From: a virus
Strand: one strand, 5' to 3'
Virus record (IMG/VR): IMGVR_UViG_3300044941_000516
Location: 1 to 34,111 of that record
Length of the DNA stretch: 34,111 nt
A program made the position numbers and the translations under genes. Shown piece by piece: positions 1-34,111 of this stretch. Each line of letters starts with the position of its first letter. Within the stretch, counting starts at the first letter, position 1. The notes beneath the pieces were generated by a model. That model was not told the DNA's origin, searched no databases, and saw only the letters and a list, made by a program, of their open reading frames with translations.

Positions 1-44
1 TCATAACCTGAAGGTCGTCGGTTCAAATCCGGCCCCCGCAACCA
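1..44 (+). tRNA. tRNA-Met(CAT), 3' part; phage integration target
   Basis: The window opens at U33 of the anticodon loop. The anticodon CAT is at 2-4, the 3' strand of the anticodon stem at 7-11, the variable loop at 12-16, and the T arm at 17-33 (GTCGG, TTCAAAT, CCGGC; one G-T pair). The acceptor strand is 34-40, the discriminator A is 41 and an encoded CCA is at 42-44. The 5' half lies outside the window. The stem sequence suggests elongator Met rather than initiator; tRNA-Ile2 with a modified CAT anticodon cannot be excluded from half a gene. The phage supplies the last ten bases again, so the tRNA stays complete after integration. Confidence 0.93.
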
Positions 45-1668
45 CCAGTGTCGAACTGCCGCCGATAAGGGCGGTGTAGTCTCCCGCCATCTCTGCCCAC
101 AGCCTGTCATCCTCTGCCATTAAGCGCACTTCGCCGCCGGTAAGGATTTTGAGGTGTTCCCGCGCCTCGGTTATCAGATCGGCATTGATGCGGCCAAGGC
201 TGCCTACATATTCTCTGTAGCGCTCCAGTGCCCTCGGCACCATGTGCATGACCTCGGCAGAGGATGGCTGGGCATTATCCAACAAAAGTTGTAACCGGCG
301 CTTTTCGTCCTCGGCTTTTTTGATTTCTTCAACAATAGAGGGCAGCGCTGTGCCTGCCTTGATGAAGCTCATGAGATTATCCAGCTCAGCATTGACCTGT
401 TTCATGCGGCCTTCAAGCTGTTTTCGCTCGGCAGCATAAACCGTTTCCATCTGGCCGATGAGCGAATTGCACTCTTTGAGGAATTCCCGCATTGCCTCCG
501 GCGATAGCAATTGCTCCTGAATGCCTTGCAAAAGTCTGGACTCAACCACGCTTCTGCGGATTGTCAGCTTATTGCTGCACGCATGTGGCCCGCGATCACG
601 ATGGCGGGCGCAACCGTAATAGTCCACCCCCGTAAGGATGAAATTCCCGCCGCACTCGCCGCATTTCAGCAGGCCAGAGAACAGGTATTTCTCAGTGCCC
701 TTGCGACGCGGCCCGTGTGGGTTCAAGGCTGCTTTTTGTCGCTCAACCTTTGCCTGCCACAACTGGTCTGAAATGATACGCAGATCTTGGCGCTCTACCG
801 CCACATGCTCGCTCATATCGCGCTCAATGGGGCGGCGCTTGCCATCGGGTGTTTTAACCCATTCGCGTCGGTTCCACACCACCTTGCCAATGTAGATTTG
901 ATTATTCAGCAGGCCGGTATTGCGCTTCATATCACCGTATATGGCACTGCGGCACCATGTGCTACCTCGTGGGGATGGAACCCCCTTCTCATTCAGCTTT
1001 GACGCAATCCATGCGACAGGATGTCCGGCAACGTACCATTCAAATATTTGCACCACCCACTTTGCTTGCTCAGGGTCAACCTCTCGGTCAACCTCCACCA
1101 CCAAGGGACGACCAAATTCATCCATACGCGCCGCGTCATAAACAGGCTTGCGCCGGTAGCCGTAGGTGCTACCGCCAGTGCATTTGCCATCCCTCGCCTT
1201 TCCGGCCATACCGCGCCGGGTTTTCTCGCGCAGGTCGTCAATGTAGATATCGTTGACGATGCCGCGCACCCCGGCTTGCAGCTTGTAGGACTTGTCGTTG
1301 CTGTCAAAGCCGTCAGATATGGCAACCACGCGCTGCCGCCGGTACTTAAACTCACGGATAATCTGCTGGGTTTCGATATTGTCCCGGCTGAGACGGGACA
1401 GATCATCCACAATCAGCGCATCAAAATCGCCCCGCTGGGCTGCATCCAGCATGAGCTGGTAGCCCGGACGCATTCGGTGCGTGCCGGTAATGGCTTTATC
1501 CTCAAACCGCGCCACCACCATAAAGCCAAGCCGCTCCGCCATGCGCTCACAGTTATAAAACTGGTCGGCAATGGAGCTGTCGCGCTGCTTATCGCTGCTG
1601 AATCTGGCGTAAATTGCGGCTTTCACTTGGGTTCGCCTTAGATTGGTTAATTTCTTTACGGTACTCAT
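1..1668 (-). CDS. int: Large serine recombinase (phage integrase)
   Basis: This 555-aa site-specific recombinase integrates and excises the phage. The N-terminal resolvase domain has the catalytic motif ARFSSDKQ, with Ser24 as the likely nucleophile. It is followed by a recombinase domain (around residues 160-265), a zinc ribbon (CGEC, later C and C, around 335-370) and a long charged coiled coil, the usual order for large serine integrases. I chose ATG at 1668; a TTG at 1686 directly follows an in-frame stop and is less likely. The last nine codons and the TGA stop are host tRNA-Met sequence read backwards, so the C-terminus GFEPTTFRL exists only in the lysogen. In the excised phage the frame would run on through 32547-32458 and add a different 29-residue tail (about 575 aa). 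Confidence 0.95.
   Translation of the reverse strand: MSTVKKLTNLRRTQVKAAIYARFSSDKQRDSSIADQFYNCERMAERLGFMVVARFEDKAITGTHRMRPGYQLMLDAAQRGDFDALIVDDLSRLSRDNIETQQIIREFKYRRQRVVAISDGFDSNDKSYKLQAGVRGIVNDIYIDDLREKTRRGMAGKARDGKCTGGSTYGYRRKPVYDAARMDEFGRPLVVEVDREVDPEQAKWVVQIFEWYVAGHPVAWIASKLNEKGVPSPRGSTWCRSAIYGDMKRNTGLLNNQIYIGKVVWNRREWVKTPDGKRRPIERDMSEHVAVERQDLRIISDQLWQAKVERQKAALNPHGPRRKGTEKYLFSGLLKCGECGGNFILTGVDYYGCARHRDRGPHACSNKLTIRRSVVESRLLQGIQEQLLSPEAMREFLKECNSLIGQMETVYAAERKQLEGRMKQVNAELDNLMSFIKAGTALPSIVEEIKKAEDEKRRLQLLLDNAQPSSAEVMHMVPRALERYREYVGSLGRINADLITEAREHLKILTGGEVRLMAEDDRLWAEMAGDYTALIGGSSTLVVAGAGFEPTTFRL
31..44 (+). other. attL core (14-bp direct repeat with attR)
   Basis: The sequence ggcccccgcaacca here is identical to 32548-32561, and identity stops on both sides. 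The phage-derived arm is 35-55. The host-derived arm is the tRNA T arm to the left. The predicted crossover dinucleotide is CC at 33-34, the centre of the inverted repeat seen when attP is rebuilt from both ends. Confidence 0.9.
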
Positions 1669-1732
1669 CGGCGACCGCTTTGGCAATCACCTGAATTAAG
1701 CCCTTGATTGGTGGTGATATATACCCGCTCAT
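1589..1732 (-). CDS. Small protein overlapping the integrase start
   Basis: This 47-aa ORF begins with an ATG that overlaps the TGA of the upstream gene (ATGA at 1732-1729), behind a GAAGGTG ribosome-binding site. It overlaps the first 80 bp of the integrase in another frame. The product starts MSGYISPPIKGLIQVIAKAV and has a short amphipathic helix followed by a charged tail. No function is recognised. The stop-start coupling and the purine-rich leader support it as real, and its position suggests it helps couple integrase translation to the early operon. Confidence 0.5.
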   Translation of the reverse strand: MSGYISPPIKGLIQVIAKAVADEYRKEINQSKANPSESRNLRQIQQR

Positions 1733-2656: not shown

Positions 2657-2828
2657 ATCGCACCCCCTCTTCCGTTGTGACGGTGAACCCAAGGCTTTGG
2701 AGCAGCGCAATGCAGAAAAGCTTGGGCATGAGTGACAGGGTGATGGGCGCATTAAGCTCGCGCTCCTGAGCCTTGATGATAAGGCGTTGCTGGTTGACGC
2801 GATGGCGAAGGCTTTGGTTTGTTTCCAT
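2634..2828 (-). CDS. Small hypothetical protein
   Basis: The product is 64 aa, starting METNQSLRHR. The ATG at 2828 overlaps the stop of the repeat-protein gene and has a strong GGAGG site 7 nt upstream. The first 30 residues are a likely short coiled coil; the middle is hydrophobic (LMPKLFCIALLQSLGF) but short for a membrane segment; the end is charged. No family recognised. Translational coupling to both neighbours is clear. Confidence 0.6.
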   Translation of the reverse strand: METNQSLRHRVNQQRLIIKAQERELNAPITLSLMPKLFCIALLQSLGFTVTTEEGVRYGKKNPA

Positions 2829-3904
2829 CACGCAGCCTCCTTAACCGGGATGAGCTTGCCTGCCGCATCGGCCTGATACCAGACGTTCGGTTCTATGCCG
2901 TTTTCGCCCACATGGCCGACCGTGACGCGCTTACGATCAGCCTTGCCATCCCACCACGCGACGATAAGGATGCCCTTATCCCCGGCCATAGCTTTTGATT
3001 CGAGGCCAAAGGCGGCGGCAACCCCGTTTTGGCCCGTGTTGCTGGCCGCGCTCCGGTTGCCCGTGTTGCTGGCCGCGCTGTAGTCGCCCGTGTTGCTGGC
3101 CGCGCTCCGGTTGCCCGTGTTGCTGGCCGCGCTGTAGTCGCCCGTGTTGCTGGCCGCGCTCCGGAAGCCCGTGTTGCTGGCCGCGCTCCGGAAGCCCGTG
3201 TTGCTGGCCGCGCTGTAGTCGCCCGTGTTGCTGGCCGCGCTCCGGAAGCCCGTGTTGCTGGCCGCGCTCTGGAAGCCCGTGTTGCTGGCCGCGCTGTAGT
3301 CGCCCGTGTTGCTGGCCGCGCTCCGGAAGCCCGTGTTGCTGGCCGCGCTGTAGTCGCCCGTGTTGCTGGCCGCGCTGTAGTCGCCCGTGTTGCTGGCCGC
3401 GCTCCGGTTGCCCGTGTTGCTGGCCGCGCTGTAGTCGCCCGTGTTGCTGGCCGCGCTCCGGTTGCCCGTGTTGCTGGCCGCGCTCCGGTTGCCCGTGTTG
3501 CTGGCCGCGCTGTAGTCGCCCGTGTTGTGCGCCAGAGGATTGTCGTCTTTCACGAGGTTTTTCCTGATGAATTCTATCGAGGCATCCACCAACCCCTTGA
3601 TGGAGACCTCTCCCTTGACGGCGATGATGGAGGAAACTGACTTATCGGCTTCCTTTTTGATTTTGCCGGAAAGCTCAACCTCAGCAAAAACAGAGCCTGC
3701 CGGAGGATAATACTCAAAGACACTCAGCGGATATTCGCAGGCGTGAAAACCGTTGCTGCAAGGCTTGATCTCACCCTCATGATGATGGGTTTTGCCGATT
3801 TCGTAACGATAATCCCGGCAGATAAATCCCGGCATGAAGCCTTTGTATGCCACCACCGTGGCGGGTTTGGCTGCCTCTTTCTTTGTCCTTGGTTTCGCCT
3901 TCAT
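2828..3904 (-). CDS. DUF7666-like protein with 18 nonapeptide repeats
   Basis: The product is 358 aa from the ATG at 3904 (GGAGG site; TAA of the gapR homologue just upstream). Residues 1-110 form a globular domain with features such as YKGF, FICRDYRYEIG, GFHACEYPL and VFAEVELSGKI, which I associate with phage and bacterial DUF7666-type proteins. Next come 18 tandem copies of NTGxxSAAS, in which only the two x residues change (DY, NR, FR or FQ), and a degenerate 19th copy. A C-terminal domain (AAAFGLESKAMAGDKGILIVA) follows. A repeat of this regularity suggests a beta-solenoid rod. The longer ORF to 4003 has no good start. Function is unknown; its place in the early recombination operon suggests an intracellular role. 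Confidence 0.85.
   Translation of the reverse strand: MKAKPRTKKEAAKPATVVAYKGFMPGFICRDYRYEIGKTHHHEGEIKPCSNGFHACEYPLSVFEYYPPAGSVFAEVELSGKIKKEADKSVSSIIAVKGEVSIKGLVDASIEFIRKNLVKDDNPLAHNTGDYSAASNTGNRSAASNTGNRSAASNTGDYSAASNTGNRSAASNTGDYSAASNTGDYSAASNTGFRSAASNTGDYSAASNTGFQSAASNTGFRSAASNTGDYSAASNTGFRSAASNTGFRSAASNTGDYSAASNTGNRSAASNTGDYSAASNTGNRSAASNTGQNGVAAAFGLESKAMAGDKGILIVAWWDGKADRKRVTVGHVGENGIEPNVWYQADAAGKLIPVKEAA
3041..3526 (-). repeat. 18 tandem 27-bp coding repeats
   Basis: Each 27-bp unit encodes NTGxxSAAS. Outside the two variable codons (GACTAC, AACCGG, TTCCGG or TTCCAG) the units appear identical at the DNA level, which points to recent expansion or continual homogenisation. The order from the N-terminal side is DY NR NR DY NR DY DY FR DY FQ FR DY FR FR DY NR DY NR. 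A nineteenth, diverged unit occupies 3014-3040. Confidence 0.95.
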
Positions 3905-3905
3905 G

Positions 3906-4196
3906 TTAAGCCGCCTCCAGCTGGTCGTTGCCCTCAGCGCGTTCAAATGCCGGGATAAGGCCCAAGGCTGCCTTGTAGGTATCGAGCAAATGCTCCCATT
4001 CATCCCGGTCGTTTTTGTCCTTTGCGCGAATCTTCACAATCTCGCGCATGATTTTAGGGTCATAGCCGTTGGCCTTTGCCTCGGCGTACACATCGCGGAT
4101 GTCTCCGGCGATGGCGTCTTTTTCTTCCGTGAGCTTTTCAATGCGCTCAATGAACTGCTTGAGCTGTTCGGCTTGAATGCCGCCATGAAACGCCAT
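3906..4196 (-). CDS. gapR: GapR-like (DUF2312) DNA-binding protein
   Basis: This 96-aa protein matches the GapR/DUF2312 family: QLKQFIERIEKLTEEKDAIA, DVYAEAKANGYDPKIM and a charged helix leading to LLDTYKAALGL. GapR is an alphaproteobacterial chromosome-associated protein that binds AT-rich, overtwisted DNA and supports replication and transcription. The second ATG (4196) is preferred because its GGGAG site is 7 nt away; the first (4202) is too close. The C-terminal 20 residues extend past the usual end of the family. It sits downstream of the recombinase genes, so it may help phage replication or compete with host GapR; that is inference. Confidence 0.9.
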   Translation of the reverse strand: MAFHGGIQAEQLKQFIERIEKLTEEKDAIAGDIRDVYAEAKANGYDPKIMREIVKIRAKDKNDRDEWEHLLDTYKAALGLIPAFERAEGNDQLEAA

Positions 4197-6371: not shown

Positions 6372-6640
6372 GCTTGCCCCCGCGCTTTGGCAATGGCGGA
6401 TTTAAGCGCTTCCATCCCTTCACAATCAGGCGCTAGGCCGCATTGGTTTAGCAAAACGTCATAGGCCCATTCTGCTTCGGCCAAAAGCTCAGCCCGAGCC
6501 TTATCAATCCCCGCCTGCGCTGCGTTAAATATTGCCTGCCTCGTGTGCTGCATGGAATAGTGCTTAAGGGCACTGCCCGAAGCTTTCAGAACTGCATCAG
6601 CCAAAGCCTCTGCTTCCTGCTTGTGCTGCGCCTTATTCAT
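6368..6640 (-). CDS. Small helical hypothetical protein
   Basis: The 90-aa product is almost entirely alpha-helical by composition, alanine- and lysine-rich, starting MNKAQHKQEAEALADAVLKA. It overlaps the exonuclease gene by 4 bp (ATGA) and the upstream gene by 8 bp. Function unknown. Its tight coupling to the exonuclease makes an accessory role in recombination conceivable but unproven. Confidence 0.65.
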   Translation of the reverse strand: MNKAQHKQEAEALADAVLKASGSALKHYSMQHTRQAIFNAAQAGIDKARAELLAEAEWAYDVLLNQCGLAPDCEGMEALKSAIAKARGQA

Positions 6641-7470: not shown

Positions 7471-7499
7471 TGTATGCCATATCGGCATATTCAATGCAA
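7471..7499 (-). promoter_or_regulatory. Predicted leftward early promoter (pL-like)
   Basis: On the minus strand there is a -35 TTGCAT (7499-7494), a 17-nt spacer and a -10 CATACA (7476-7471). The spacer contains operator 7473-7489. The -10 is weak by consensus, but the arrangement copies that of the stronger rightward promoter at 8887-8916 (TTGACG, 18 nt, CATACT, operator in the spacer), which raises confidence. Confidence 0.55.
7473..7489. promoter_or_regulatory. Repressor operator OL1
   Basis: The palindrome TATGCC-ATATC-GGCATA has two perfect 6-bp arms. It lies between the -35 and -10 of the leftward promoter, so a bound repressor would exclude RNA polymerase. Confidence 0.8.
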
Positions 7500-7506
7500 C
7501 AATAAA

Positions 7507-7525
7507 ATATGCCATATCGGCATAT
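7507..7525. promoter_or_regulatory. Repressor operator OL2
   Basis: The palindrome ATATGCC-ATATC-GGCATAT is centred 35 bp upstream of OL1, the same spacing as between the two operators at the rightward promoter. It probably supports cooperative repressor binding. Confidence 0.8.
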
Positions 7526-7552
7526 TCATATTTTGTGCCTTAACCAAGCCAT

Positions 7553-7584
7553 AAAAAAAGGGCCTTGCTATTGCAAAGGCCCTT
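7553..7584 (-). terminator. Intrinsic terminator of the repressor operon
   Basis: On the minus strand a GC-rich hairpin (GGGCCTT arm pairing with AAGGCCC, continued by TGC/GCA inside) is followed at once by seven T. It lies after the second lipoprotein gene and before the leftward promoter, so it separates lysogenic from early transcription. Confidence 0.85.
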
Positions 7585-7616: not shown

Positions 7617-7949
7617 CTACCTTACTTTACCCTTTCCGCGCACGCCTGCTTTGCAGTTATGCACACCCGTCATTTCGTCACGATCAACGATAAAGGCGGA
7701 GCCTTCCTTATCGATGCCAGCATAGCCTAGCTGCTTAGCCACTATTTTGGCCTTGGCTTCGCAGTTATCGCGAGCCGTCTGCCCCTCAGGCACGAAGGAA
7801 TACATGTTGTATTCCATCTTGAACCCGTCATCCGTTTCCACATAGCTGGTTTCTTTTCCCATGAGTCGGGCCTGCTGGCCGTCAATCTTGGTTGCGGCGT
7901 CCGTGCAACCGGCCACCAGAATTAAAGCGCAAACCGAAACAATCCTCAT
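7617..7949 (-). CDS. Small lipoprotein, repressor operon
   Basis: The 110-aa product has a short signal peptide and lipobox (MRIVSVCALILVAGC; lipidated Cys15). The mature part is charged with two further cysteines that could form a disulfide. It begins 7 nt after the preceding lipoprotein gene and ends just before the terminator, so it is transcribed with the repressor and should be made in the lysogen. The longer ORF to 8024 overlaps the neighbour. Function is unknown; superinfection exclusion or lysogenic conversion is a reasonable inference. Confidence 0.75.
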   Translation of the reverse strand: MRIVSVCALILVAGCTDAATKIDGQQARLMGKETSYVETDDGFKMEYNMYSFVPEGQTARDNCEAKAKIVAKQLGYAGIDKEGSAFIVDRDEMTGVHNCKAGVRGKGKVR

Positions 7950-7956
7950 GGTTTTG

Positions 7957-8235
7957 CTATTCTGAGGATTTACGACATTCAAAAACTTGTGTTGGCGGGC
8001 CTGAATAGCCAAGCACCCCCTCATTTACGGGCAAAGGAAACGCTATTTTCTTGTATTGAGCACAATGCTTTTCAGCTATTGGAGCAAAATCCTCCATATC
8101 CGACATAATGCGATCATATTTAATGCTTATGCTCCTTTCATTTTTGTAGGTCACCTCATAGGGCTTACCCCAGCCAACGGCACTGGAACAGCCGACAACG
8201 GCAATAAGTGGCAATAATTTAATGATCTTTATCAT
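7957..8235 (-). CDS. Small lipoprotein, repressor operon
   Basis: The 92-aa product has a signal peptide with lipobox (LPLIAVVGC, Cys16). The mature part contains ISIKYDRIM, AEKHCAQYKKIA and a terminal FECRK. I associate this spacing of two cysteines with a widespread group of small proteobacterial lipoproteins of unknown role. A GGGAG site precedes the ATG, which lies 9 nt after the repressor stop. It is co-transcribed with the repressor, so it is a candidate cell-envelope factor of the lysogen. Confidence 0.78.
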   Translation of the reverse strand: MIKIIKLLPLIAVVGCSSAVGWGKPYEVTYKNERSISIKYDRIMSDMEDFAPIAEKHCAQYKKIAFPLPVNEGVLGYSGPPTQVFECRKSSE

Positions 8236-8244
8236 AAGCTCCCT

Positions 8245-8829
8245 CTAGTACGCTTTTTTTACCCATTCAATCCGACATGCCCACTCTATTTCAACGCCCT
8301 CAATCTCCGGTGCGTTGTAGCTAGTAAGGCGGAACAATCCGTCTCGCATACCGCGCTTCAGCTCTTTCACGAACAGGCGGCCATCGCGCAGCTTAACGAT
8401 GCACTCTTTGCCAAGCAAGGCCGGGTCAAAGTCACAGTCGCGCGCATAGTAAATCAGGTCGCCATCTTTATAGGCGGGGTACATGCTATCGCCGCGCACC
8501 CGCAGGGCAACAGTGTTTTCTGGTAATCCAGCATGTCCCTCAACTTCTTCAAGCCCAGCGCCTTTTGCGTGGTCGTCAATGGCATAAACTTCAGCGCCTG
8601 CGCCTACATAACCAACGAGAGGAACGGTTTTTTTGGTATCCATCAGGTCTGTCGCACTACACTGAAGGGCTTTCGCAAAGCCCTGAATGTAATCAGCGGT
8701 CATCTTCATCCGACCGGATTCCAATTTGTACACTGTCATTTTGTCGATACCCATTGCATCCGCAACCTGCTGCTGAGTAATTCCAAGACGTTCGCGTACA
8801 CGCTTTACTGATTGTCCGGTGTTTTTCAT
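8245..8829 (-). CDS. LexA/CI-type phage repressor (S24 peptidase)
   Basis: The 194-aa repressor keeps the prophage silent. Residues 5-60 form an HTH_3 domain (RERLGITQQQVADAMGI, MTVYKLESG). The C-terminal S24 domain has the catalytic serine (RGDSM, Ser115) and lysine (FVKEL, Lys155). A possible self-cleavage bond is A77-G78 in VGAGAE, so RecA/SOS induction is likely. The start at MKNTGQ (8829) is chosen because the HTH begins there and an operator lies 9 bp upstream. There is no clear Shine-Dalgarno, so the message may be leaderless or weakly translated. Two lipoprotein genes follow in the same operon. Confidence 0.95.
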   Translation of the reverse strand: MKNTGQSVKRVRERLGITQQQVADAMGIDKMTVYKLESGRMKMTADYIQGFAKALQCSATDLMDTKKTVPLVGYVGAGAEVYAIDDHAKGAGLEEVEGHAGLPENTVALRVRGDSMYPAYKDGDLIYYARDCDFDPALLGKECIVKLRDGRLFVKELKRGMRDGLFRLTSYNAPEIEGVEIEWACRIEWVKKAY

Positions 8830-8837
8830 GCCAGCAC

Positions 8838-8854
8838 CATACCAATACGGCATA
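8838..8854. promoter_or_regulatory. Operator next to the repressor start (OR3-like)
   Basis: The site reads CATACC-AATAC-GGCATA: one perfect and one weaker arm. It ends 9 bp before the repressor ATG, so it is placed for autoregulation. Confidence 0.6.
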
Positions 8855-8862
8855 TCAATGAA

Positions 8863-8879
8863 ACTACCAGAGTGGCATA
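8863..8879. promoter_or_regulatory. Degenerate operator OR2
   Basis: One perfect arm, GGCATA (8874-8879), pairs with a poor arm, ACTACC. Its centre is 35 bp from OR1 and 25 bp from the OR3-like site. The 35-bp spacing matches the leftward pair. Confidence 0.5.
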
Positions 8880-8886
8880 TCTGGGC

Positions 8887-8916
8887 TTGACGATTAGTAT
8901 GCCATAATGGCATACT
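8887..8916 (+). promoter_or_regulatory. Predicted rightward early promoter (pR-like)
   Basis: There is a -35 TTGACG (8887-8892), an 18-nt spacer and a -10 CATACT (8911-8916). It drives the Cro-like gene at 8947 and probably the long rightward block behind it. Confidence 0.7.
8896..8916. promoter_or_regulatory. Repressor operator OR1
   Basis: AGTATGCC-ATAAT-GGCATACT has perfect 8-bp arms and is the best match of the operator set. It covers the spacer and the -10 of the rightward promoter. Confidence 0.85.
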
Positions 8917-8946
8917 TAATGTATCGCAATTAGGGGCAGTAATTAT

Positions 8947-9183
8947 ATGCACGCGTTAGAATCCTATCGAAAAGAGCGGAGAATGAGCCGCAAAAATTTG
9001 GCTGATGAGGCAGGGACTACAGCTTCGTCAATTTACCGATACGAACGCCTCGGCAGAATTCCTGACGCAGAAGCCATGCAAGGGCTTGTTAAGGCCACCA
9101 ACGGTCAAGTAACTCCAAATGATTTTTACCACATCACACTTCCCAGTATGGGCAGTAAAGGGATAGTTACGCACAAAAATTAA
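8947..9183 (+). CDS. Cro-like HTH regulator
   Basis: This 78-aa protein is divergent from the repressor gene. It has an HTH of the XRE type (MSRKNLADEAGTTASSIYRY, then ERLGRIPDAEAMQGL). The position and size fit a Cro-like antagonist that binds the same operators and shuts off repressor synthesis when the lytic programme starts. The C-terminus after residue 60 is short and polar. An AGGGGC stretch lies about 11 nt before the ATG. Confidence 0.85.
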   Translation: MHALESYRKERRMSRKNLADEAGTTASSIYRYERLGRIPDAEAMQGLVKATNGQVTPNDFYHITLPSMGSKGIVTHKN

Positions 9184-30087: not shown

Positions 30088-30539
30088 CCGATATCGTCAA
30101 TTATGCTTTTTGCGTTTATTGCGGCGGTGATGTTGAGCCAATCGAGCTGGCTGGCGAGAATACAATCAATGTCCGGTGCGTGAAGTGCGGTGCAGCCAAT
30201 ATGGTTGAGGTTGCCAAGCCGCCGGTTGTACAAGCGAAAGCTGAAATCGCGCCGGATGATAATACGCTGGTAGAGACTGCGCCGCCAGCGCTGCCTGAAA
30301 AAGAGCCCGACCGGGGAGCAGGCTTTAGGCATGAGCGGCTCGGGGAGGCCATTGTCGCAAATTTGCCAGACGGGGAATTACACTCTGTGCGCGGCAATAT
30401 CATCGTGCGGCAGGACGACTCTGAATATTTGCCATGGTTGTTCTTTTGGAACGACGCCGAATGCGGGCCGCGGCCAAGCGATGAAACGCTGGCGGCATGG
30501 GTTGCTGCGTTGGATGCCGATGAAAACCTACCAGCTTAA
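30084..30539 (+). CDS. Zinc-ribbon protein with acidic linker
   Basis: The 151-aa product has an N-terminal four-cysteine ribbon (CVYCGG and CVKCG), a proline/glutamate-rich linker (about 50-80) and a small C-terminal domain with EYLPWLFFWNDAECGPRPSD. It overlaps the fibre stop (ATGA) and the next gene. It may be a fibre-assembly or regulatory protein, but nothing identifies it. Confidence 0.6.
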   Translation: MTDIVNYAFCVYCGGDVEPIELAGENTINVRCVKCGAANMVEVAKPPVVQAKAEIAPDDNTLVETAPPALPEKEPDRGAGFRHERLGEAIVANLPDGELHSVRGNIIVRQDDSEYLPWLFFWNDAECGPRPSDETLAAWVAALDADENLPA

Positions 30540-30933
30540 GCGCCAGCAATACACGCCTGAGGGGGTTTCCGGCTTCCTGATGGATGGCGATAAAAAGCTG
30601 TGCTGCACATGGGAGCTGCCTTGGCTTGATAACGCAAATGGAAAAAGCTGCATACCGGCTGGAGCTTATAAGGTTGTGCGCCACAGGTTCGAGACACCCG
30701 GCCATACAAAAAGCGGCTGGCGGTTGCTCAATGTTCCCGGTCGGGAGGGAATACTTATCCACCGGGGCAATACCGTGGAGGATATAGAGGGCTGCATACT
30801 GGTGGGTGCAAACTTTGGCATGTTGCCGGGTAGCAAAACAAAAAAGATTCGTCCGGGCGTGCTGTCGTCAAAGGTAACGGTCGATAGGCTCCGCAAGGTG
30901 CTGCCAGTCGAATTTATGTTGGAGGTCATGTGA
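30520..30933 (+). CDS. DUF5675 protein, candidate cell-wall enzyme
   Basis: The 137-aa protein matches DUF5675: MKTYQLKRQQYTPEGVSGFL, then CTWELPW, CIPAGAY and the motif ILIHRGN (His81) followed by EGCILVG (Cys92). The His...Gly-Cys pattern resembles the active site of YkuD-type L,D-transpeptidases. It opens the lysis block, and no lysozyme, amidase or endopeptidase gene is present, so it is the best candidate for the endolysin; that is inference. Start 30520 is chosen; 30514 is equally possible. Confidence 0.75.
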   Translation: MKTYQLKRQQYTPEGVSGFLMDGDKKLCCTWELPWLDNANGKSCIPAGAYKVVRHRFETPGHTKSGWRLLNVPGREGILIHRGNTVEDIEGCILVGANFGMLPGSKTKKIRPGVLSSKVTVDRLRKVLPVEFMLEVM

Positions 30934-31193
30934 TCAGCGTAAAGGGCTATAACGTGTGCTTCCTTGACCTCGTTACAGATTCAAAGACCGGCAAGTTGTC
31001 GGCCACAAAAATATGGCACCACGTCGGGTGCAGCATCCTCAGCTACAAGGCCGTTACCGAAACTTGGTGGGGTGCCGAAGAGCTGCTGATTTATGGTGTG
31101 TTGGTGATTTTCCAATATGCCCTGCCCCTATACCTGAAATGGAGATACCGCGATGCTATTCCTGTCGACGCTTCTGGCGACACTGAAAAATAA
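30930..31193 (+). CDS. Holin-like small membrane protein
   Basis: The 87-aa product has TGKLSATKIWHHVGCSILSY in its first half, which recalls a family of small phage membrane proteins, and one clear membrane segment (LLIYGVLVIFQYALPLYL) with a basic cytoplasmic-type end. It overlaps DUF5675 (4 bp) and the spanin gene (41 bp). A holin or holin-regulating role fits position and topology but is unproven. Confidence 0.6.
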   Translation: MISVKGYNVCFLDLVTDSKTGKLSATKIWHHVGCSILSYKAVTETWWGAEELLIYGVLVIFQYALPLYLKWRYRDAIPVDASGDTEK

Positions 31194-31545
31194 CGCATGG
31201 CTGATTCTGGCCTTTATCGCCTACAGCGTTGCCATTTACGGATGGGGCAACTGGGAAGGGCGAGAGGTCATCAAGGGTGAGTGGCGGCAGGAAAAGCAGG
31301 ATGCGCTCATTGCTGCCCATGTCGGCGCAGCGGAGCGGCAGGCGCTTGCCGACGAGCTGGCGAAACGCTGGGAGGCCAGCCAAGCCGAATATGTGAAAGT
31401 GCTGAATACCGCGAAGAAAGGGTTACAAAATGAAATTGCCAAAAACGCCGCTTTTCGTGATTGCCATGCTGGCGCTGGCGTCGTGCAGCTCTATCGGGAT
31501 GTTGCCGCCGGTAAGGCAAACACAGCCACCAGCAAACCTCATTAG
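31153..31545 (+). CDS. Inner-membrane spanin (Rz-like)
   Basis: The 130-aa protein has an N-terminal membrane anchor (NNAWLILAFIAYSVAIYGWG) followed by a long charged helix (QALADELAKRWEASQAEYVK) and a tail, the topology of an i-spanin. With its outer-membrane partner it fuses the two membranes in the last step of lysis. The partner gene begins inside it in another frame. Confidence 0.85.
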   Translation: MLFLSTLLATLKNNAWLILAFIAYSVAIYGWGNWEGREVIKGEWRQEKQDALIAAHVGAAERQALADELAKRWEASQAEYVKVLNTAKKGLQNEIAKNAAFRDCHAGAGVVQLYRDVAAGKANTATSKPH

Positions 31546-31684
31546 TGAGTGCCGCGAGCCGGTCACCTTGGGCAATGACAGTTTTGGCACGATCACCGAG
31601 GCGCTGTTTGATAACACAGCCTCTCTGCGCGAGTGCCGCGCCAAACATTCCGAGTTGGTGAAGTGGACGATAGGCGCTAATTAA
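31430..31684 (+). CDS. Outer-membrane spanin lipoprotein (Rz1-like)
   Basis: The 84-aa lipoprotein has a signal peptide and lipobox (IAMLALASC, Cys19), then a proline-containing stretch (LPPVRQTQPPANL). Its start lies 116 bp inside the Rz-like gene in a different frame, the classic overlapped spanin arrangement. It is the last gene of the rightward block. Confidence 0.88.
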   Translation: MKLPKTPLFVIAMLALASCSSIGMLPPVRQTQPPANLISECREPVTLGNDSFGTITEALFDNTASLRECRAKHSELVKWTIGAN

Positions 31685-31690
31685 GGGCGG

Positions 31691-31912
31691 TCATTTCGCA
31701 GCAAAGTCTAGCGTTCTGGCCTTAACCAAATCAATGCCGCCCAAAAGCGGAAAGAGATAGTCGCCGGGTGTTGTCGCCGTCGCAATATTCTGGCCGTCCA
31801 TCACGGCGGCAAACGCCAAAGCTGAGATGCGCCCTTCCTGTGCCGCCTCAATAAGGCGCTGGAGGTTGCCCATAATGGTGTTGTCGGCAGGAAAGTTAAC
31901 GATATTGGTCAT
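31691..31912 (-). CDS. Small hypothetical protein, right-end leftward pair
   Basis: The 73-aa product starts MTNIVNFPADNTIMGNLQRL behind AGGAG at 8 nt. It contains a helical amphipathic part (QRLIEAAQEGRISALAFAAV) and ends with LLGGIDLVKARTLDF. No family recognised. It converges with the spanin gene with only 6 bp between stops. In the excised phage it would lie downstream of int in the leftward early operon. Confidence 0.65.
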   Translation of the reverse strand: MTNIVNFPADNTIMGNLQRLIEAAQEGRISALAFAAVMDGQNIATATTPGDYLFPLLGGIDLVKARTLDFAAK

Positions 31913-31966
31913 GGGCAAGACTCCTTTTGTTCCAGACGGTGCACCTCAGCAGCTTCGACACATGCG

Positions 31967-32461
31967 TTATCCTCCTAAAGCCAGCGCCCCAAAAAGCGCA
32001 CCTATCAGCAGCTCAGCGGGTCGGGTGTTTTCTTCTTTTCCGGGGATGAATGCGTAAATCGGGCCTGCCAGTGCCATGCTCATCCCGCCGACCGGATTGA
32101 ACCATGCCAGTGGCGCGGACCAGATGAGGTAGCGCAGGCTCATGCCTACGGTGCCGTAAAGGCGGTTTGGCAGGGCGTGGACGCGCTCAATTATGGCAAG
32201 GGCGGCATCGGTAGCCGGACATTCCCTTTCCGCTCTCAGGTCGCGCCCATGGAAGGCCATGAAGTATTTGCCGTGCCCCATGACAAGGGCGAATAGAATC
32301 AGGGGCGTTTTAAGCCACCAGAGCGGCACGGCGGCCATATACAGCACGGCTCCCATACCGGCTACAGCCCAAAGTCGGTTTCCACCCGGCAGATCATCAA
32401 AGGCCCCGGCCCCGCGGCTTGCGTTCAGCAGGGCAATGAGGTAGATAGCAGCGGGAATCAT
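31967..32461 (-). CDS. Polytopic membrane protein next to attR
   Basis: The 164-aa protein has about four hydrophobic segments (IPAAIYLIALLNA, LWAVAGMGAVLYMAAVPLWW, TPLILFALVM, then LLIGALFGALALGG) and a soluble loop with GKYFMAFHGRDLRAERECPA. No family is recognised with confidence; a superinfection-exclusion or holin-like role is possible. Its start (32461) overlaps the stop codon that the integrase would use in the excised phage (TGA 32460-32458), giving an ATGA junction, so it looks like the next gene of the int operon. Confidence 0.72.
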   Translation of the reverse strand: MIPAAIYLIALLNASRGAGAFDDLPGGNRLWAVAGMGAVLYMAAVPLWWLKTPLILFALVMGHGKYFMAFHGRDLRAERECPATDAALAIIERVHALPNRLYGTVGMSLRYLIWSAPLAWFNPVGGMSMALAGPIYAFIPGKEENTRPAELLIGALFGALALGG

Positions 32462-32541
32462 AAACTTCCCGCCTTTTTGTGGGGTAAAACCCTCGGATTT
32501 CCCTTGCCTTCACTAAGTGGTATGGATATTCGATACTTGCC

Positions 32542-32561
32542 GTTGCGGGCCCCCGCAACCA
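32542..32561 (+). other. attR core with inverted repeat
   Basis: The 14-bp core 32548-32561 equals 31-44. Around it, GTTGCGGG (32542-32549) and CCCGCAAC (32552-32559) form a perfect 8-bp inverted repeat with CC (32550-32551) at the centre, the predicted crossover. The phage-derived arm is 32529-32549. Confidence 0.88.
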
Positions 32562-32719: not shown

Positions 32720-34111
32720 GTGGCAAGTTTGCAATCGATTGATCCATTTCTTGCGTCTGTACTGAATGAAGAACAGCGCGCGCGGTCTGCATCCATCAGT
32801 CTTATTGCGTCCGAAAACATTCCTCTGCCGGAAGTTTCAGCCCTTGCCAGTTCTGAATTTTTAAGCCGCAATTATTTTGGCAACCCAATCGGGCAGGATG
32901 CGCGAAGGCCTCCATTCTACCCCGGTCATGAGGCAGCCTCCAATCTCCAGACACTTGCTATTGAGCGCGTCAAAGGATTGTTTCATTGCAATCATGCCAA
33001 TGTCCAACCGCTCTCGGGCACATTGGCTAACAGCGCTGTATTCAAGGCTCTGGATGAGAAACTGTGCCGAAAAGCGGTCACCCTGTCGCTCGACTTTGTC
33101 AATGGCGGTCATTTTTCACATGGCGGTGACCGTGACAACTGCAATGCCGATGCACGCCATGCGCATGGTTATGGGGTATGTGACGACGGCAGCATAAATT
33201 ATGACGACTTGGAAAACCGAGCTTTAAACGCAAATCCCAAACCGGATGTTATCATCGTCGGCGGCTCTTCCTATACACATGATATCGACTTTGTACGTGT
33301 ACGCGAGATTGCCGATAAAATCGGTGCACTGGTCTGGTATGACATGGCTCAGGTTTCCGGACTGATTGCAGGCGGTGCCATGCGCCAGCCATTTGAGCAT
33401 GGCGTGGATATCGCAACATCCTCCACCCATAAAACCATTCGCGGTGTCAAAGGGGGCTTTATCGCCTGGAACGATCCAAACCTCTCGCGCTTTATCAATG
33501 ATGCCGTAGCTCCGGGCATTCAAGGCGAAACCAACATCGCTAACATTGCGGCAAATGCCTTGGCATTTCTTCATGCCAGCAGTGAAGATTACGGTCTTTA
33601 CGCGCACCAAACCATCAAGAATGCCAATCTGATGGCTGAAAAACTCATGGAGAATAATATCCGGGTGCTGGGGAACGGCACAGAAACCCATTTTATCATG
33701 GTAGATCTGCGTCCATTAGGCCTTAAGGGAGAACATATCGCCAGCGCACTGGCCAATATTGGGCTGCTGTGCAACAAACAGGCCGTCCCCGGGGATACGG
33801 ATCGCATATTGAATTCAGGCATACGCATTGGTACCCCGGCTGCAACATCACAGGGTTTTTCTCCAAGTGATTTTACGCAAATCGCTAATATCATTTCCAA
33901 TATGATTCATGTCCATGCACAAACCCTGCAAAACATCGGGCTTGATTACAGCCAATTTCACAATAGCCCCGAATACCTTGCCTACGAGTCAACACAGCGA
34001 GAGCAGGTGCAAGAAATTATTGCTAACGCCCCCTTCCAGCCATTCCCATATGCTTATGCCGACTTTGCCCTGACCGGCCTGCCCATTCGCGGCCAAATCC
34101 ACATCCAGTAA
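32720..34111 (+). CDS. Divergent serine hydroxymethyltransferase-like PLP enzyme (host)
   Basis: The 463-aa protein begins with GTG behind GGGGAG at 5 nt. It has the SHMT fold: SISLIASENIPLPEV, HANVQPLSGTLANSAVF, a PLP lysine in SSTHKTIRGVKGG (Lys238) and SGIRIGTPAATSQGF. Yet two active-site positions differ from E. coli GlyA: Glu57 aligns with Gly54 (NYFGNPIG against NKYAEGYPG), and His203 is Gln211 (YDMAQVSG). It also carries a C-terminal extension of roughly 40 residues. It is probably a paralogue with changed chemistry rather than the housekeeping glyA. It lies outside attR and was downstream of the tRNA before integration. Confidence 0.85.
   Translation: MASLQSIDPFLASVLNEEQRARSASISLIASENIPLPEVSALASSEFLSRNYFGNPIGQDARRPPFYPGHEAASNLQTLAIERVKGLFHCNHANVQPLSGTLANSAVFKALDEKLCRKAVTLSLDFVNGGHFSHGGDRDNCNADARHAHGYGVCDDGSINYDDLENRALNANPKPDVIIVGGSSYTHDIDFVRVREIADKIGALVWYDMAQVSGLIAGGAMRQPFEHGVDIATSSTHKTIRGVKGGFIAWNDPNLSRFINDAVAPGIQGETNIANIAANALAFLHASSEDYGLYAHQTIKNANLMAEKLMENNIRVLGNGTETHFIMVDLRPLGLKGEHIASALANIGLLCNKQAVPGDTDRILNSGIRIGTPAATSQGFSPSDFTQIANIISNMIHVHAQTLQNIGLDYSQFHNSPEYLAYESTQREQVQEIIANAPFQPFPYAYADFALTGLPIRGQIHIQ

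Follow-up and report, generated by a model that had tools for sequence, protein, structure and literature searches.

In phage lambda, the int transcript includes the sib sequence past attP only while the DNA is free, and integration cuts the two apart. The mycobacteriophages BPs and Brujita display integration-dependent immunity, in which an ssrA-like tag is lost on integration (PMC9262239, PMC9934374). In archaea, the suicidal integrases (SSV1, pTN3 and pT26-2) carry the attachment site inside their own gene, and, according to a review, self-disruption of an integrase gene is found in archaea only (PMC8371274). For serine integrases, the attB sites reported are more often protein-coding (PMC6109161). 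Lambda sib retroregulation, integration-dependent immunity and the archaeal suicidal integrases are the closest known kinds of system to the locus described here, in which attP lies inside the gene of a large serine integrase. A literature search for serine integrases that use tRNA-fMet and carry attP within the integrase gene found none among open-licence papers, which is weak evidence of novelty.

The locus occupies the two ends of an IMG/VR record of 34,111 bases (hereafter the window, meaning the whole stretch of DNA that was analysed). The window holds a temperate prophage, flanked by the 3′ end of a tRNA-Met(CAT) gene and by a host SHMT-like gene (32720-34111; other features in Table 1), and the host is probably alphaproteobacterial. 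The 5′ part of the tRNA is cut off by the window end, and attL lies inside the 3′ portion. The integrase body matches PHROG 95 (integrase, E 3e-87) and carries Resolvase, Recombinase and zinc-ribbon domains together on a single chain longer than 500 aa, which identifies it as a large serine recombinase. Another trait of large serine integrases, a short attP with dyad symmetry about the crossover, is also present (TGGTTGC/CGCAAC). The attR core together with 32542-32547 restores the attP dyad TGGTTGC-GGGGGCC-CGCAAC, known from relatives, and the rejoined site, TGGTTGCGGGGGCCCGCAAC, is a partial match to the dyad at their free-type sites (TGGTTGC-GGGGG-nnn-GCAACCA).

We reconstructed the phage circle by joining 45..1686 to 31691..32561 at the 14-bp repeat. 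An earlier note on this DNA had proposed that int runs in frame through attP and that its TGA overlaps the ATG of a membrane-protein gene as ATGA. The reconstruction confirms this, coordinates included: the frame stays open across the rejoined attP for 581 aa, and its TGA (32460-32458) overlaps the membrane-gene ATG (32461-32459). The lysogen form of the integrase has 561 aa; its frame stops at position 1 of the window, in tRNA-antisense codons (VVAGA-GFEPTTFRL). In this reconstruction, integration thus replaces 29 C-terminal residues of the integrase with 9 that are encoded by tRNA antisense. The free-form tail, which ends in AGSL, has a non-coding-like codon use (score -0.16), so the position of the int stop could be accidental. 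A transcript that passes through int in the lysogen enters the host tRNA-Met(CAT) in antisense, and our scan found no leftward terminator-like site on the stretch from the int body to the tRNA, the nearest (358-341) lying inside int.

Table 1. Features of the prophage and its attachment sites in the window.
Feature	Position	Strand	Basis
tRNA-Met(CAT), 3′ portion, host, probably initiator tRNA	1..44	+	CAT anticodon, T-arm and CCA end in the sequence
attL core GGCCCCCGCAACCA, 14 bp	31..44		Longest exact repeat shared by the two ends
Large serine integrase body (Resolvase, Recombinase, Zn_ribbon_recom)	45..1686	-	Pfam E 3e-28, 3e-18, 2e-10
Pair of operator-like palindromes ATGCCATATCGGCATAT opening the leftward exo-recT-int operon	7472..7531		Four copies in all, two beside the repressor gene
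Leftward terminator-like site (stem 7578-7563 plus T run) dividing the repressor operon from the int operon	7553..7578	-	Scan
S24-type CI repressor gene	8245..8952	-	HTH_3 and Peptidase_S24
Last genes of the rightward late operon: DUF5675 protein, small membrane protein, Rz-like and Rz1-like spanins	30331..31684	+	Domain/PHROG matches
73-aa protein gene, ATG 31912, preceded by AAAAGGAG	31691..31912	-	ORF; codon score 0.21
Multi-helix membrane-protein gene, 164 aa	31967..32461	-	ORF; codon score best in own frame
Hairpin, membrane-gene ATG in the loop, putative ribosome-binding site in the 5′ arm	32450..32473	-	Fold
Same hairpin followed by CTTTTT, on the inner side of attR; likely terminator of the rightward late/lysis operon	32451..32477	+	Pattern scan; fold -11.5 kcal/mol
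Severed int 3′ end for circular phage DNA: tail VVAGARNGKYRISIPLSEGKGNPRVLPHKKAGSL plus TGA 32460-32458	32458..32561	-	Reconstruction; similar free-type tails in relatives
attR core GGCCCCCGCAACCA, 14 bp	32548..32561		Longest exact repeat shared by the two ends

The locus resembles lambda sib in that a part beyond attP is linked to the int transcript in free DNA alone and is cut off by integration, but the severed part is a regulatory RNA site in lambda, whereas here it comprises the integrase C-terminus and two protein genes. With BPs and Brujita it shares an attP in a coding frame, an attB at a tRNA 3′ end and a swapped C-terminus (PMC9262239, PMC9934374). In those phages, however, attP lies in the repressor gene and the integrase is a tyrosine recombinase, whereas in the window attP lies in the serine-integrase gene and the repressor gene is about 7 kb away. 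Nor does the free form carry an ssrA-like C-terminal tag, since it ends in AGSL and -AA ends occur only in relatives. The likeness to the archaeal suicidal integrases is the position of the attachment site; those are tyrosine recombinases whose catalytic part is split into inactive halves, whereas this is a serine recombinase in which all Pfam domains precede attP, only a short stretch at the C-terminus changes and the catalytic domains stay intact. We conclude that the window system belongs neither to integration-dependent immunity nor to the archaeal suicidal integrases.

The two genes beyond attP are downstream of int in the circle, and lie 30 kb away from it in the lysogen; integration does part them from int, as had been claimed. 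Scored with the codon usage of the phage, both ORFs are best in their own frame (0.09 for the 164-aa and 0.21 for the 73-aa ORF). They are convergent with the end of the late operon, the gene ends lying 6 nt apart (31684/31691). A mechanical ORF list had started the second gene at TTG 31918, which we corrected to ATG 31912. The last codons of the 164-aa gene (TTA GGA GGA TAA; window 31930-31970) form a strong ribosome-binding site, which serves a 5-codon frame, ATG TGT CGA AGC TGC TGA, ahead of the 73-aa gene.

The kind of overlap seen at the junction of int and the membrane gene recurs elsewhere in the leftward operon, as the earlier note had stated, with four-base ATGA overlaps at 2831/2828 and 6371/6368; an 8-base overlap is also found at 6640/6633. 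At random positions in the phage, frames running open to a stop that overlaps a start codon occurred at a rate of 5.4% when any start codon and an ORF of at least 100 aa were accepted, 1.4% with ATG and at least 100 aa, and 0.7% with ATG and at least 160 aa. An overlap of int and the membrane gene by chance is unlikely, but not overwhelmingly so.

The start of the membrane gene is covered by a hairpin (GCGGGAA, 8-nt loop, TTCCCGC) that spans 32451-32472. On the minus strand its predicted energy is -13.3 kcal/mol (z -4.6 against shuffles, 31-nt fold), and it is weaker in a 66-nt context (z -1.75). Ribosomes reading the free-form int would have to cross this hairpin, as in classical translational coupling, and the same hairpin is equally explained as the late terminator. 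Since late transcription would end only there, past the two genes, its RNA probably covers both of them in antisense. The leftward and rightward transcripts had been expected to meet at 31685-31690, which the scan does not support: no terminator-like site is found at that place, and the rightward one is at 32451-32472. In the leftward direction, the pattern scan found no terminator-like site between int and the two genes.

The leftward operon contains exonuclease VIII and RecT, and its last gene is int. Four palindromes of the ATGCCATATCGGCATAT type were found in all, two at 7474 and 7509 and two diverged copies at 8839 and 8899 beside the repressor gene. It is natural to infer from this layout that the int operon is under CI control and repressed in the lysogen. 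Two small lipoprotein-like genes follow the repressor in the same operon (7617-8024 and 7957-8235, with lipobox-like VVGC and LVAGC); they stand upstream of the leftward terminator-like site and are candidates for surface proteins expressed in the lysogen. A further observation is a long run of short repeats (3000-3530) in the gene of a DUF7666 protein (2828-4003), encoding SAASNTG-containing units.

To place the integrase among its relatives, we used a nine-sequence integrase profile, which yielded 80 loci in bacterial genomes and 80 in IMG/VR; the tRNA-Met(CAT) clade with attP inside int is found among them (L011-L090 and L098-L177). The int frame ends in tRNA antisense in 96 examined loci, and in 57 of these the same antisense stretch is recognised by ARAGORN as a complete opposite-strand tRNA-Met(cat). 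The tail GFEPxTF(R/G)L, antisense to the tRNA when integrated, is a trait of the clade found in these 96 relatives and in the window (GFEPTTFRL). Clean free-type tails occur in 43 further loci. Where a free-type integrase (L112) was compared with tRNA-type ones (L104, L111 and L128), the bodies were 95–98% identical and diverged only just after the core. Because both types of tail are this numerous and near-identical bodies part after the core, an attP inside the 3′ end of int and a tail swap on integration are a property of the clade. The integrases of L041, L053, L062, L123, L148 and L037 have two successive VAG cores, about 20–50 codons apart, before the tRNA-antisense end, as though these genes had taken up an att junction from before.

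Records L106, L107 and L138 have exact terminal repeats of 127 bp, which fits complete circular genomes. The last of these, IMG/VR phage G456, is a complete free genome of 41,864 bp with no tRNA and a single core. It runs from int through attP and an ATGA to a gene for a 267-aa protein and a P22-type anti-repressor (PHROG 524, E 5e-58), followed by convergent tail genes. The order is that of the window, with a serine integrase, attP, an ATGA overlap, two genes and then convergent late genes; yet int reads the core in another frame, and the 267-aa protein and the anti-repressor are unrelated to the window pair. This gene order makes the arrangement in the window more credible, though the overlap by itself is within chance, being the one ATGA case beyond attP in 37 free-type loci (about the chance rate). 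Among these 37 loci, which have enough sequence beyond int, the dominant ORF after it shares the strand of int in 14 and lies on the opposite one in 23. In the elements of Herbaspirillum and Glaciimonas, int ends about 38 nt after the core and no coupled gene follows. We therefore rejected a gene coupled to int beyond attP as a rule of the clade, given the 23 opposite-strand loci and these elements, and the coupling would be specific to this phage and not a rule of the integrase family.

The analysis confirmed the anatomy of int, the att cores, the ATGA overlap, the hairpin and the tail swap in relatives. The best explanation of this arrangement, which we hold with moderate confidence, is that the two genes are the severed end of the integrase operon. 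In the circle, the leftward early operon (exonuclease VIII, RecT, small genes and int) would continue through attP as one transcript. Ribosomes would finish the 581-aa integrase at TGA 32460 and pass by way of the ATGA to the membrane gene, opening the hairpin that hides its start, and the 73-aa gene would come next. Integration into the 3′ end of tRNA-Met would then carry the two genes off to the far end of the prophage and part them from their promoter, so that they would be expressed between infection and integration, and once more after excision, and would be silent in the lysogen. The leftward transcript from int across attP into the two genes, proposed in the earlier note, thus finds support in the anatomy (the open frame, the ATGA, the operator-like palindromes and the gene order of G456), while the transcript itself is something we infer.

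The main rival, possible though in our view rather unlikely, makes the two genes a lysogenic-conversion (moron) pair, perhaps coding for membrane exclusion proteins; a promoter of their own or of the host would drive them in the lysogen, and their position after int in the circle would be incidental, as would the ATGA. Their location in the prophage, between the lysis genes and attR and opposed to the late operon, is a usual one for morons. No recognisable homologue of the 164-aa protein was found in Pfam, PHROGs, phage and plasmid tblastn or IMG/VR patterns, nor in 385 genomes of an alphaproteobacterial class sample or 50 related phage and integrase-bearing viral records, as expected of a recent acquisition. 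The protein is hydrophobic; a low-confidence model, folded without an alignment (mean pLDDT 55), shows about seven helices, and a fold search with a model of that confidence was discarded as meaningless. For the 73-aa protein, Pfam, PHROGs, tblastn, IMG/VR patterns and 32 related phage records gave no homologue beyond a weak match to PHROG 796 (unknown function, E 0.008). Many IMG/VR records have a terminase 56–68% identical to that of this phage; in 32 such records, neither gene was found and the integrase not convincingly (one weak match). The integration module and the two genes are therefore a local assembly.

Promoter signals bear on the same alternative. The earlier note had counted on there being no dedicated promoter upstream of 32461, and no promoter-like match is present between 32461 and attR: the scan found no sigma70-like site on the minus strand of 32462-32561, which is weak evidence in a host that is probably alphaproteobacterial. 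The nearest sigma70-like match, a weak one (9 of 12), lies in host DNA at 32726-32697, where it could serve a moron pair. The phage part thus offers such a pair no promoter-like match, and the start codon of its first gene would be buried in the hairpin. The rate of chance overlaps can be read either way, being as high as 5% by the loosest definition and just 0.7% by the stricter one. A host-side frame at attR (FAANEKLSSDKMVAG) was also considered as a relic of a second integrase and rejected, since its profile score (2.1 bits) was no better than that of shuffled sequence.

We consider it very improbable that integration acts mainly on int itself, in the manner of lambda sib, with the sequence past attP controlling the int mRNA or protein in the free phage only and the two genes as passengers. 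Integration does take away a hairpin that lies 3′ of int in the circular DNA, but at the place where a sib-type RNase III site would destabilise the int mRNA there is just this hairpin of 8 bp. The tail of the integrase protein is exchanged, and the free-type tails of the clade are enriched in -AA ends (9 of 43, against a null mean of 0.8 and a maximum of 6) and in -A ends (17 of 43, against a null mean of 5.4 and a maximum of 13), in 2000 draws from a null that ignores relatedness. This enrichment recalls ssrA-like tags and is not claimed for the window phage, whose free tail ends in AGSL and not in AA; moreover, two codon-supported genes come after int. That the ORFs are not genes at all, just the antisense of the 3′ untranslated region of the late operon, would fit the late terminator-like site beyond both and the want of homologues found for either, but is the least credible reading, since both ORFs score best in their own frames with phage codon usage, have plausible ribosome-binding sites and, in the 164-aa case, encode several hydrophobic helices.

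If the anatomy of the severed operon works as we read it, integration alone, without a dedicated regulator, would tell the phage whether it is a circle or a prophage. The two genes would then be tied to the early promoter in the circle only, and the C-terminus of the integrase would differ between the two states. For the family, we offer a doubtful generalisation: that in a widespread bacterial clade of serine integrases, integration switches the 3′ end of the integrase's own operon. The free form would have a tail that is often ssrA-like (-AA) and in some phages would be co-expressed with genes past attP (the membrane and 73-aa genes here, an anti-repressor in another phage), and the integrated form would have a tRNA-antisense tail and be disconnected from those genes. 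Many such recombinases end in GFEPTTFRL-like peptides because these are antisense tRNA. The directionality of serine integrases is usually credited to a separate factor, and a clade whose integrase tail differs between the integrated and the free form would be a direct test case for it.
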